Source of the DNA: a virus
DNA length: 24,806 nucleotides
IMG/VR virus record: IMGVR_UViG_3300042518_000188
Location: 1-24,806 of that record
Reading direction: 5' to 3' (one strand)
Shown here: positions 16,612-19,418 of the stretch, one piece after another
Layout: each line of letters opens with the position of its first letter
Position numbering within the stretch: position 1 is the stretch's first letter
Notes under the pieces: model-generated
What the model saw: only the letters and a program-made list of their open reading frames with translations
The model's database searches: none
Told to the model about the DNA's origin: nothing
Position numbers and translations under genes: made by a program

Positions 16612-18182
16612 TGGACGTTCGACTTCCTGATGGCACGATTGTCCAAAATGTGCCTGATGACATAACGCAGGAAGACTTGATGGAGCGCGTCGGCATGGCG
16701 CAGCAACCATCAGAAGGCATGACTGGCCGCCGTGCGGCTGAAGTTGCGGGAAGCGCTGTTGCGCCTATCGTGGCGGCGGCTGGACTTGGTGGTATAGTCG
16801 GCGGTCCGGTCGGCGCGCTGGCGGCTCCCGCCGCGCTCGGCGTCGCTGATCTGGCGACAACGCTATATAACGTCGCGGCTCCGCGTTTTGGTGGGCAGCC
16901 TGTTCGCACACCGTCTGAAATTGCGCGGGGCTATTTGACGCCTGAATCATTTCAACCACGCACGCAGGCCGAACAGCTTTTAGCCGCTGCGGCTGAAGGC
17001 GGTGCGGGTGCGTTGACTGGCGGTGGCGCGGCTAATGTTCTTGCCAAACGCGCAGCGCCAGGGCTCGTACGTAATGTTCTGGCCACGATGGGCGAGCGTC
17101 CGTTCGTGCAGGCTGGCGCAGGTGCTGGAGCGGCGGCGGCTCCAGTTCGTGCTGAACAAATGGGCGTTGAAGATCCGCGCGCTTTGCTGGCTACGAGCCT
17201 TGTCGGAGGTTTAGCCGGTGCTCGCGGTGCGGGCGCTCTACAGCGCGGTGTCGAGTCGGGCGCGGCGGCGGCGCAACGCGGCGTCATGGGCGCGTTTGGC
17301 AAGCCGCCAACGACAGAAGCTCTCGGAGAACGAGCAGCGCAGTCGTTTGAGCGCGCCACGTCGCTTGGCGTGCAGTATGATCCGACGGCGTATCAAAAGT
17401 TTGCTTCGGGACTTGAGACTGACTTGAAGGGCTACGACCCGGATTTCAGCAAGTTTGCCGACGTTAAAGTCGCGATTAACAAGCTGAAGGATCTGGACAG
17501 CCAGCCGTTGACGATTGAACGTCTACATAATGCTCGACAGATGCTAGGCGTTCTGCGCGGCGATAGCGAAAAAGACGTGCGCCGTATGGCCGGCATTCTT
17601 ACGGACAAGTTGGACAGTTTTATCACGAACGAAAAAAATGCTGTTGGCGCGGATGCTAAAGAAGCCGCCGACGCTCTTATGTCCGGCATTAAAGATTATA
17701 AGTCGATGAGTAAGAGCGCTGAGATAGAGCGCTTAATTGAACGCGCTGATTTATCTGGTGGATCGGCCGAAAATATTCAATCGCAATTCCGTTCTGTCGC
17801 CAAGAACGAAGGACGTATGCGCAAGTTCACGCCTGACGAACAGACAATGATTCGCCGCATTGCTAAGGGTGAAGAAGGTTCGACAATCGCTAATCTTCTT
17901 AGCCGCGTCGCGCCATCTCGTAGCCCCGGCATGTTGGCGACTCAAGCGCTTGTCGGCGGCTACGGCTACTCCAGCGATGATCCTTACGCTTTCTACGGCG
18001 CTGGCGCGGCGGCGCTCGGCGGCGCGGCTGGCCGCGCTGTTCGTAACGCTATGTCTCGTCGTGCGGCCGGCAATGTTGCGGCGATGACGCGCGGCGCTCC
18101 GACGGCCGTGCCGTTTACGCCTACTTATGGTTCTCTTGCGCTGCCGATTATGTCGCAGGGCGTCAACGCGATGGCGAGATGA
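16611..18182 (+). CDS. Large ejection protein, gp16-position, with hydrophobic Gly/Ala segments
   Basis: The 523-aa protein opens with LPDGTIVQNVPDDITQEDLMERV, in pieces PDGTIVQNVPDDIT and EDLMERV, a short N-terminal motif shared by many phage injection proteins. Residues about 43-82 and 120-145 are long Gly/Ala stretches without charge (APIVAAAGLGGIVGG, APAALGVADL), capable of membrane insertion as glycine-zipper-like helices. The centre (residues about 230-440) is charged and helical. The last 80 residues are again Gly/Ala-rich and end with TYGSLALPIMSQGVN. This alternation fits a protein that forms part of a transenvelope conduit. It is third of the three ejection genes, as gp16 is in P22 (609 aa). 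It overlaps the next gene by ATGA. Confidence 0.8.
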   Translation: MDVRLPDGTIVQNVPDDITQEDLMERVGMAQQPSEGMTGRRAAEVAGSAVAPIVAAAGLGGIVGGPVGALAAPAALGVADLATTLYNVAAPRFGGQPVRTPSEIARGYLTPESFQPRTQAEQLLAAAAEGGAGALTGGGAANVLAKRAAPGLVRNVLATMGERPFVQAGAGAGAAAAPVRAEQMGVEDPRALLATSLVGGLAGARGAGALQRGVESGAAAAQRGVMGAFGKPPTTEALGERAAQSFERATSLGVQYDPTAYQKFASGLETDLKGYDPDFSKFADVKVAINKLKDLDSQPLTIERLHNARQMLGVLRGDSEKDVRRMAGILTDKLDSFITNEKNAVGADAKEAADALMSGIKDYKSMSKSAEIERLIERADLSGGSAENIQSQFRSVAKNEGRMRKFTPDEQTMIRRIAKGEEGSTIANLLSRVAPSRSPGMLATQALVGGYGYSSDDPYAFYGAGAAALGGAAGRAVRNAMSRRAAGNVAAMTRGAPTAVPFTPTYGSLALPIMSQGVNAMAR

Positions 18183-18433
18183 TTATGGTCGAATACCAAG
18201 TTCTTTTTGATGTGGCCATTGGCGTCATCGGCGTGCTGGGCGGCTGGACGCTCAATACCGTCTGGGCGGCTGTGAAAGATCTCCAGCAGGCCGACAAAGA
18301 ACTGGCCGAAAAGGTCGGGCAGATTGAAGTGCTGGTAGCCGGGCGCTATGTGACTCGCGAAGACTTTAATCAGGTGCTGAATCAAGTCTTTGAAAGACTA
18401 GACCGCATCCGTGACTTGGTGAGCCGCCAATGA
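18179..18433 (+). CDS. Small membrane protein with coiled coil, holin-cassette candidate (84 aa)
   Basis: A single hydrophobic segment (about residues 8-30: FDVAIGVIGVLGGWTLNTVW) is followed by a heptad-like charged helix (KDLQQADKELAEKVGQIEVLV) and a short C-terminal helix with YVTREDFNQVLNQVFERLDRI. Proteins with this one-TM-plus-coiled-coil plan are frequent directly before phage endolysins and are sometimes labelled holin or lysis-associated. A single TM with a soluble helical domain could also fit an inner-membrane spanin-like role. The start overlaps the ejection-gene stop; a second ATG two codons later (18185) is an alternative. The stop overlaps the endolysin start (ATGA). Confidence 0.75.
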   Translation: MIMVEYQVLFDVAIGVIGVLGGWTLNTVWAAVKDLQQADKELAEKVGQIEVLVAGRYVTREDFNQVLNQVFERLDRIRDLVSRQ

Positions 18434-18936
18434 AAGAGAATTACGACGCCGCGCTGAAGGCGACGCTGCGCTACGAGGGCGGCAAGGTCGATGACCCGCG
18501 CGATCCTGGCGGACGCACGGCCTACGGCGTCACGCAGAACACTTACAATGCGTGGCGGGCCAAGCACGGGCTTAGCCAAAAGGACGTATTCCAGATCGCC
18601 GATTCAGAAGTCGCGGCGATTTACAAACAAGAGTATTGGGACAAGATCCGGGGTGATGATCTGCCGGATGGTGTCGACTTCGCCGTGTTTGATTTCGCCG
18701 TTAACAGCGGCGTCAGCCGCGCGGCTAAGTATCTCCAGTCCATCGTTGGCGTGCCACAGGACGGCATAATCGGCCCAAAGACGATCCTTGCCGCCAAGTC
18801 TTATCTTGGCAATAAGGTCACGGATAAACGACTGGGCTTCCTGAAAGGATTGTCTACATGGGCTACCTTTGGTCGTGGTTGGTCAAATCGAATAAACGAC
18901 GTTTATGCTGTTGTGCGGGACTTATGCTCGCGCTGA
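18430..18936 (+). CDS. Endolysin, GH108 muramidase with PG-binding domain
   Basis: It cleaves the glycan strand of peptidoglycan to lyse the host. The 168-aa protein has the GH108 signature EGGKVDDPRDPGGRTAYGVTQ, in pieces EGGKVDDP and GGRTAYGVT, with E16 as the expected catalytic acid. It continues with IYKQEYWDKIRGDDLPDGVDFAVFDFAVNSG, landmarks YWDKIRGD and DFAVNSG, typical of the family. The C-terminal part (VPQDGIIGPKTILAA, then a basic tail) is the peptidoglycan-binding segment. There is no signal peptide, so it needs a holin or equivalent for release. The last 79 bases are shared with the nested lipoprotein gene. ATGA-coupled to the TM protein upstream. Confidence 0.93.
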   Translation: MKENYDAALKATLRYEGGKVDDPRDPGGRTAYGVTQNTYNAWRAKHGLSQKDVFQIADSEVAAIYKQEYWDKIRGDDLPDGVDFAVFDFAVNSGVSRAAKYLQSIVGVPQDGIIGPKTILAAKSYLGNKVTDKRLGFLKGLSTWATFGRGWSNRINDVYAVVRDLCSR

Positions 18937-19004
18937 GCGGCTGCGCTGACCTTAAGTATTACGAATGTATCGCGCGCGATAGCACATCGCGGCCGTGTAA
19001 CTAA
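18858..19004 (+). CDS. 48-aa lipoprotein nested in the endolysin 3' end (lysis lipoprotein, o-spanin candidate)
   Basis: ATG 18858 in a different frame from the endolysin is preceded by GAAAGGA at the usual distance. The product begins MGYLWSWLVKSNKRR, then a hydrophobic core (LCCCAGLMLA) and the lipobox LSGC with C29. The predicted mature lipoprotein is only 20 residues, with two more cysteines (C37, C47). A short lipoprotein whose gene overlaps a lysis gene in another frame is the hallmark of Rz1-type outer-membrane spanins, although Rz1 normally overlaps Rz rather than the endolysin and is proline-rich, which this is not. The signal peptide is clear; the lysis role is inferred from position. 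It is too short for most gene callers. Confidence 0.75.
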   Translation: MGYLWSWLVKSNKRRLCCCAGLMLALSGCADLKYYECIARDSTSRPCN

Positions 19005-19015
19005 AAGAGGCTAAA

Positions 19016-19192
19016 ATGTTAGTTAACTGGATGACCACGATTCCCGGCATTCTGACGCTGTTGTCCGTGCTGTTCCACGCTTGGCAGACCAAAGACGTGA
19101 ACTGGACGGATCTCCAGAACGCGCTCGTCGCGCTGGGCCTCGTCGCGGCTAAGGACTGGAACGTGACCGGCGGCAGCAAGCCGAATGATTGA
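19016..19192 (+). CDS. Small hydrophobic protein, possible holin (58 aa)
   Basis: AGAGG lies about six bases before ATG 19016. The product has two hydrophobic stretches: about residues 8-23 (TIPGILTLLSVLFHAW) and 35-45 (NALVALGLVAAKD), separated by a polar turn, and ends KDWNVTGGSKPND. The ending GL(I/V)AAKD.NVTGG recurs in small phage proteins near endolysins, from memory. Two short TM segments could make a hairpin holin, but the second is short and contains a lysine at its end. It overlaps the following lipoprotein gene by eight bases. Confidence 0.65.
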   Translation: MLVNWMTTIPGILTLLSVLFHAWQTKDVNWTDLQNALVALGLVAAKDWNVTGGSKPND

Positions 19193-19418
19193 AGGGGTCA
19201 GGTCGCAGCGCCAAAGACTGTTGATGAAACTGCCGATGATCTTGATGCTGGCAAGTTTTAGTGGTTGTGCGTCGACCAGCAGGTGCCCCCCGCTGGTCGA
19301 CTATTCAAAAGAAGATCAAGCCAAAGCGGCCAAAGAGTTACGCGCTCTCCCCAATGACAGCGCTATTGCTAGGCTCGTCCAAGATTACGGCCAGCTCCGG
19401 CGAACTTGCCGCCTTTAG
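19185..19418 (+). CDS. Second lipoprotein of the lysis cassette (77 aa)
   Basis: The N terminus carries RSQRQRLLMK, then a hydrophobic core (LPMILMLASF) and a lipobox-like FSGC with C28. Phe at -3 is less usual than Leu. The mature part of about 50 residues starts CASTSRCPPLVDYSKEDQ, continues helical (AKAAKELRALPND, IARLVQDYGQLRR) and ends near a Cys. This C-P-x-(L/V)-V-x-Y-S..DQ.KAA.EL.ALP.DS pattern recurs in phage lysis regions. An alternative ATG at 19224 would give a shorter signal peptide but has no ribosome-binding site. It would be an outer-membrane or periplasmic partner in lysis. Its last 81 bases overlap the end of the opposite-strand DUF6378-like gene. Confidence 0.75.
   Translation: MIEGVRSQRQRLLMKLPMILMLASFSGCASTSRCPPLVDYSKEDQAKAAKELRALPNDSAIARLVQDYGQLRRTCRL

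Follow-up and report, generated by a model that had tools for sequence, protein, structure and literature searches.

A micro-lipoprotein gene nested in the 3' end of a phage endolysin gene and the undescribed family to which it belongs

Here, we report that a short open reading frame at positions 18858-19004 of a viral genome sequence is a real gene with lipoprotein architecture, nested in the 3' end of an endolysin gene. Its product, which we call a micro-lipoprotein, is a member of an undescribed phage family that combines a variable signal peptide with about 20 mature residues and the ending C-x2-RD-x-T-x2-PCN. The gene was studied in a window of 24,806 nucleotides, the whole stretch analysed of IMG/VR virus record IMGVR_UViG_3300042518_000188, and in its relatives among viral contigs. 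The micro-lipoprotein is best explained as a further envelope protein encoded in the lysis cassette and not as its o-spanin.

The nested gene and its conservation

The gene (18858..19004; like every feature located here by coordinates in the window, on the plus strand) has 48 codons plus a stop and encodes MGYLWSWLVKSNKRRLCCCAGLMLALSGCADLKYYECIARDSTSRPCN. It overlaps by 79 nt, in another frame, the gene of a GH108 endolysin (18430..18936), which matched Pfam PF05838 with E 3.5e-29 and phrog_315 endolysin with E 1.9e-49. A GAAAGGA ribosome-binding site, assigned from the sequence, lies at 18843..18849 and ends 8 nt before the ATG. The product runs from a Lys/Arg-containing n-region through a hydrophobic core to the lipobox LSGC (18933..18944), in which the Cys codon 18942-18944 specifies the residue predicted to be acylated, and on to a predicted mature lipopeptide of 20 residues, CADLKYYECIARDSTSRPCN (18942..19001). 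The C-terminal motif C-x2-R-D-x-T-x2-P-C-N (18966..19001) includes a possible Cys loop, C-x9-C. The mature part holds three Cys, the acylated one included, and three further Cys are found in the hydrophobic core of the signal peptide, which is made up of the endolysin's last codons read out of frame. The original prediction had described this 48-codon frame with its GAAAGGA, basic n-region, LSGC and endolysin overlap, all of which was borne out, and the three Cys that it counted in a mature part of about 20 residues are present and conserved. An AlphaFold2 model of the 48-aa protein was uninformative (pLDDT 64).

The endolysin was found in 80 viral contigs or loci, 50 of which retain the frame, the lipobox and the C-terminal motif. 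Two contigs stop less than 80 nt past the endolysin stop and four have a cut endolysin; among the remaining 24, a different lipoprotein occupies the slot in 8 and none is present in 16. Endolysin identity to the window was 78-100% in the 50 keepers and 64-73% in the 24 loci without the motif lipoprotein. Loss of the frame or lipobox next to a conserved endolysin was sought and, at 78-100% endolysin identity, no case emerged: every one of the 50 complete relatives in this range retains the nested frame with its Cys-containing C-terminal motif, as well as the lipobox (judged by pattern).

Substitution patterns on both sides of the endolysin stop agree with this retention. Among 28 distinct endolysin genes, synonymous divergence was 0.06 in the last 14 codons, against 0.35-0.61 in eleven other 14-codon bins and 0.48 upstream of the overlap. 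The suppressed stretch spans the signal-peptide core and the lipobox, and the first ~12 codons of the small ORF lie outside it. The non-overlapping tail evolves as protein: in 22 distinct ORFs, third codon positions were variable at 20 of 21 codons, first positions at 6 and second positions at 8, with a pS of 0.44 and a pN of 0.056. The ATG was kept in all 43 ungapped 48-aa ORFs and AAAGGA in 42 of them, the remaining one having AAAGGG. That the ORF is an untranslated accident of overprinting is scarcely credible; against it stand the synonymous suppression, the pattern of the tail, the retention in all 50 complete relatives and the occurrence of the family outside any long endolysin overlap.

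A family with a near-invariant C-terminal motif

A DNA pattern for C-x2-R-D-x-T-x2-P-C-N-stop matched at least 119 stretches in viral contigs and, among the matches listed, these were with few exceptions the ends of short lipobox ORFs. One viral match (L174) was without a lipobox and was regarded as chance. Across 84,980 cellular genomes (257 billion bases) the pattern gave a single match (L220), which was read as having an in-frame stop and rejected, likewise as chance. When R and T were left free in the pattern, R was present in 67 of 67 distinct peptides and T in 66; when D and P were left free, 56 of 59 distinct peptides belonged to the family, and each of the 56 had D and P. The other three had no lipobox when read by eye, and two of these contained an in-frame stop. 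The invariance of these residues is thus not built in by the search pattern.

A profile search of viral contigs gave 188 hits, window included, which were reduced to 70 distinct loci. A lipobox, judged by pattern, was present in 69, and the mature part was 20 residues long in 51 of these 69, with a range of 20-25. The window protein shares the lipobox, the length of the mature part and the C-terminal motif with the family, the signal peptides differ among members, and a 15-member alignment had eight invariant positions. Some members end in PCNW or PCH. The +2 residue is Asp in one of the 69 loci, the Asp clade comprising L034 and L049. In L129 a Phe replaces the lipobox Cys, which may be an error or a lost acylation. 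In L126, L106 and L336 the open frame extends upstream and encodes one more hydrophobic segment ahead of the one with the lipobox, which leaves start and topology uncertain in these three; L336 is the member whose full extended frame was read.

The window protein had no match in PHROGs (E up to 1), Pfam or NCBIfam. Where other members had weak hits in PHROGs, NCBIfam or the PDB, the aligned part was mainly the signal peptide; two exceptions, with phrog_12111 at residues 20-34 (E 0.24) and with phrog_3641 at residues 9-51 (E 0.07), were too weak to use. Seven family queries found no member among 50,697 phage records by tblastn, a method so weak for a motif this short that it could pass over a distant member carried by an isolate. 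All members seen in this analysis come from uncultured phages. No description of such a family was found among the titles and abstracts listed from the open-licence literature, and five motif strings gave no text match there. Entericidins and other small cellular lipoproteins resemble the family in size and signal peptide; what scores is confined to the signal-peptide region (residues 1-21 with NF007319, below cut-off at E 0.0025) and, unlike these proteins, the family has a motif that is absent from the cellular genomes scanned, the one chance match aside.

Lysis cassettes, T4-like genomes and the slot

An endolysin lies directly upstream, with its start within 900 nt, in 40 of the 70 family loci, and these endolysins are of four unrelated kinds: GH108 (15), M15 (13), the phrog_181 type (11), which we take to be GH19, and Amidase_2 (1). 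The overlap of 76-79 nt is limited to the 15 GH108 loci, so that the nested arrangement is peculiar to this clade; elsewhere the genes overlap by 1-4 nt or not at all, the endolysin stop being overlapped by 4 nt in 14 loci and by 1 nt in 3. The usual downstream order is a holin-like protein followed by a second lipoprotein. The latter is present in 42 of 70 loci, as the CPPL type (phrog_26778) in 27 and as the phrog_1275 Rz-like spanin type in 15, and an i-spanin-like ORF adjoins it in 20, as counted by hand from the table of neighbour clusters.

The window follows this order. The gene at 19016..19192 encodes a 58-aa membrane protein without a family match that is holin-like by position and hydrophobicity, and its cluster is found near 34 of the 70 loci. 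The gene at 19185..19418 encodes a 77-aa lipoprotein (CPPL...DYGQLRRTCRL), a better o-spanin candidate than the micro-lipoprotein, with a match to phrog_26778 (E 5.4e-16) and weak matches to Rz-like spanins; its homologues overlap i-spanin-like ORFs elsewhere. In the window, a remnant of such an i-spanin-like 3' end, RGQVAAPKTVDETADDLDAGKF with its stop (19193..19261), overlaps the signal peptide of the CPPL lipoprotein. The remnant consists of the last 22 codons and continues the frame of the 58-aa gene beyond its stop. By regular expression, the bare tail was found in 20 loci of the window clade and the full form (~70 aa) in 6 loci of the sister GH108 clade.

Upstream of the endolysin, positions 18179..18433 encode an 84-aa protein with an N-terminal membrane segment and a coiled-coil-like remainder. 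It matched phrog_462 (E 8.1e-11) and has a homologue near 19 of the 70 loci. Although phrog_462 is labelled 'lipoprotein', the 84-aa protein of the window is without a lipobox. It occurs mostly in cassettes without the usual i-spanin-like ORF; L184 and L082 (the Manatee Spring record) have both. The protein may serve as an i-spanin substitute in the window cassette.

T4-like contigs account for 24 of the 70 loci, near gp33, gp59 or PD-(D/E)XK genes. The label denotes nearby gp33, gp59, gp32, PD-(D/E)XK or PhoH-cluster genes, of which PD-(D/E)XK, gp59 and gp33 were checked by family models, and gp32 and PhoH are names that we presume for the neighbouring genes. Here the micro-lipoprotein gene is found amid DNA-metabolism genes, away from recognised lysis genes. 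The late-promoter box TATAAAT was absent from the 150 nt upstream in all 26 loci scanned (the 24 T4-like loci, L136 and L090), with a background of 0.04 per 150 nt. This setting, together with the absence of the box, does not favour a purely late lysis role. The context was classed as 'other' in 6 loci, three of which (L106, L134 and L159) have lysis-type neighbours.

Sampling through an alignment of the holin-like gene, which is weighted to relatives of the window, gave 80 loci. In 72 of them the slot between endolysin and holin-like gene is occupied by the motif lipoprotein; one (L336) has a PCQ variant there, 6 have another lipoprotein with C-x9-C and one, L333, has none, an M15-like endolysin frame reaching the holin-like gene. 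A second kind of slot lipoprotein, with a longer mature part and a different sequence that shares the C-x9-C spacing, was seen in L331, L332, L335, L340, L345 and L348, and in L057, L060 and L062. The six from the holin-like sample end in C-KQxRPNxTE-C, and the L057 type also has C-x9-C near its end. A 31-aa lipoprotein, MRIILLCLLLSGCAPAKYIFHCTVTQPRNCN or one-residue variants of it, occupies the same slot in L067, L068, L070, L071 and L075, from -9 to +86 of the endolysin stop, and ends in C-x7-C-N. It scores weakly against the family profile (E 0.006) and, if related, shows that the loop can vary in length. After the endolysin of L065, L056, L061, L076 and L082 there is no slot lipoprotein; the sequence is open for a hydrophobic peptide (NRIVYIVAVAASISYGAKLAFMLGIYFRRTME or a variant of it), with an apparent TTG start inside the endolysin end.

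Possible roles at the host envelope

The reading that we prefer, tentatively and at somewhat less than an even chance, is that the product sits in the outer membrane as a lipopeptide and helps the outer-membrane stage of lysis by binding, through its C-terminal Cys loop, a conserved component of the host envelope. The protein would be synthesised from its own ribosome-binding site within the endolysin gene, exported and then acylated at Cys29, and it would be sorted to the outer membrane because its +2 residue is not Asp. In the end product, a short linker would join the lipid anchor to a Cys-bounded segment at the C-terminus (C-x9-C-N), probably closed by a disulfide. The family conserves two non-acylated Cys, a candidate pair for one intramolecular disulfide and, judged by their spacing of 10 residues, these would fit such a loop at least as well as the disulfide-linked dimers first suggested. 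Most likely, the loop, which is near-invariant in phages whose endolysins, holins and spanins are unrelated, would dock on a conserved component of the host outer membrane or periplasm and, as lysis begins, would weaken or lock it so that the outer-membrane step is assisted. The position in the lysis cassette argues for a role in lysis, and the presence of unrelated endolysins and holin-like proteins beside the family speaks for a partner in the host and not for one specific to the phage. Against the lysis reading, the sister GH108 clade does without the motif lipoprotein, and 16 of its 24 loci have no slot lipoprotein at all.

A serious rival, though an unlikely one, is a superinfection-exclusion or receptor-jamming lipoprotein whose disulfide-braced loop binds an outer-membrane beta-barrel from the periplasm, like T5 Llp, Cor and Rtp45, and makes infected cells and debris inaccessible to adsorption by related phages or by progeny of the same phage. 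According to the excerpted text of two reports, Rtp45 is a protein of ~6 kDa that has a Cys30-Cys38 disulfide and LptDE as its binding partner, and Llp attaches to FhuA from the periplasmic side (PMC12685063, PMC9586334). Rtp45 and Llp have the architecture predicted for the family, a lipid anchor and one small Cys loop, and this resemblance, together with the T4-like loci, in which the gene lies among DNA-metabolism genes and is without a late-promoter box, argues for exclusion; a conserved target would also account for the invariant loop. All are small phage lipoproteins with a Cys pair able to close one loop, but the family is two to three times shorter, with a mature part of 20-25 residues against the ~6 kDa of Rtp45 and the 61 residues of Llp. 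No sequence match extends past the signal-peptide region into the mature part, phrog_1119 (Cor) being matched weakly by residues 1-27 (E 0.0085) and 3-24 of two members. Unlike these proteins, the family sits in lysis cassettes in small phages, where the gene is fixed between the endolysin and holin-like genes and not beside a receptor-binding protein, and a protein tuned to the receptor of each phage should vary more.

Two further readings are improbable to a similar degree. The micro-lipoprotein could destabilise the envelope by itself, as do the colicin lysis proteins (PF02402) in bacteriocin release, which are likewise lipoprotein precursors of ~45-50 aa linked to lysis; the ColE1 lysis protein, of 45 aa, is of comparable size, and the family shares the lipid anchor and adjoins lysis genes. 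The sequences are, however, dissimilar: none of eight family representatives matched Pfam Lysis_col (PF02402), which the ColE1 control matched at 3.2e-30, BLASTP did not align the window protein with the ColE1 protein, and the mature ColE1 protein is without further Cys. Alternatively, the micro-lipoprotein could regulate the timing of lysis from the envelope, for example as a partner of the downstream holin-like protein, which its gene precedes in most non-T4 loci. Against this, the holin-like proteins next to the family fall into no fewer than two clusters (0 and 40), its T4-like loci lie apart from recognised lysis genes, and the micro-lipoprotein is predicted to reside in the outer membrane.

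Still less probable is the Rz1 analogy of the original prediction, by which the micro-lipoprotein is the o-spanin of its cassette. Like lambda Rz1, T4 PseT.2 and P2 LysC, it is a short outer-membrane-type lipoprotein from a lysis region, overlaps a lysis gene and has C-terminal Cys. The excerpted text of a paper on spanins describes a similarly spaced C-terminal Cys pair in T4 PseT.2, for which a change from intramolecular to intermolecular bonds was proposed, and a combined periplasmic length of at least 62 residues in the catalogued spanin pairs (PMC6139136). The two non-acylated Cys near the C-terminus recall PseT.2, which ends in C-x10-C-K, and the window clade is without the usual i-spanin-like ORF, which makes its cassette unusual. 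The analogy nevertheless gives way on several counts. Twenty mature residues would contribute little to the combined length in that text, and the window micro-lipoprotein has the endolysin and the holin-like gene, not an i-spanin, as neighbours. In contrast to the known o-spanins, the micro-lipoprotein overlaps the endolysin and not an i-spanin, its family has a mature part of 20-25 residues, and one near-invariant motif recurs across unrelated cassettes. The Rz-like spanin matches of other members are weak and lie over the signal peptide. The o-spanin position of the window is filled by the lipoprotein at 19185-19418; a separate o-spanin-like lipoprotein follows in all 42 loci with a second lipoprotein, and in 20 of the 70 the micro-lipoprotein lies beside a separate pair of i-spanin- and o-spanin-like genes. 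The two largest T4-like genomes examined, G001 and G002 (168,653 and 164,392 bases), both of near-T4 size, carry spanin-like pairs at ~34.8-35.5 kb and 160.6-161.3 kb, tens of kb from their micro-lipoprotein genes at 67.2 and 97.6 kb, the i-spanin calls resting also on the adjoining lipoprotein ORF since the phrog_739 profile scored in all 14 control genomes.

Accounts of lysis in Gram-negative hosts usually name holin, endolysin and spanin. The family reported here adds a further, strongly conserved lipoprotein to the lysis gene order, beside unrelated endolysins and apart from the spanin candidates, and it is also present in T4-like genomes. Genes of this kind are easily missed; the one in the window has fewer than 50 codons, is nested, fits none of the PHROG, Pfam or NCBIfam models searched and was not found in the isolates searched. 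The conservation of the motif suggests one host target, and the 20-residue mature peptide is small enough to be synthesised. It is possible, though we would not call it probable, that many uncultured phages carry a spanin-independent envelope effector of this sort, a 20-residue disulfide-looped lipopeptide that would act against one conserved machine of the host outer membrane or periplasm and be common to small phages, in their lysis cassettes, and T4-like phages, its slot being taken at times by lipoproteins of other kinds that share its Cys spacing.
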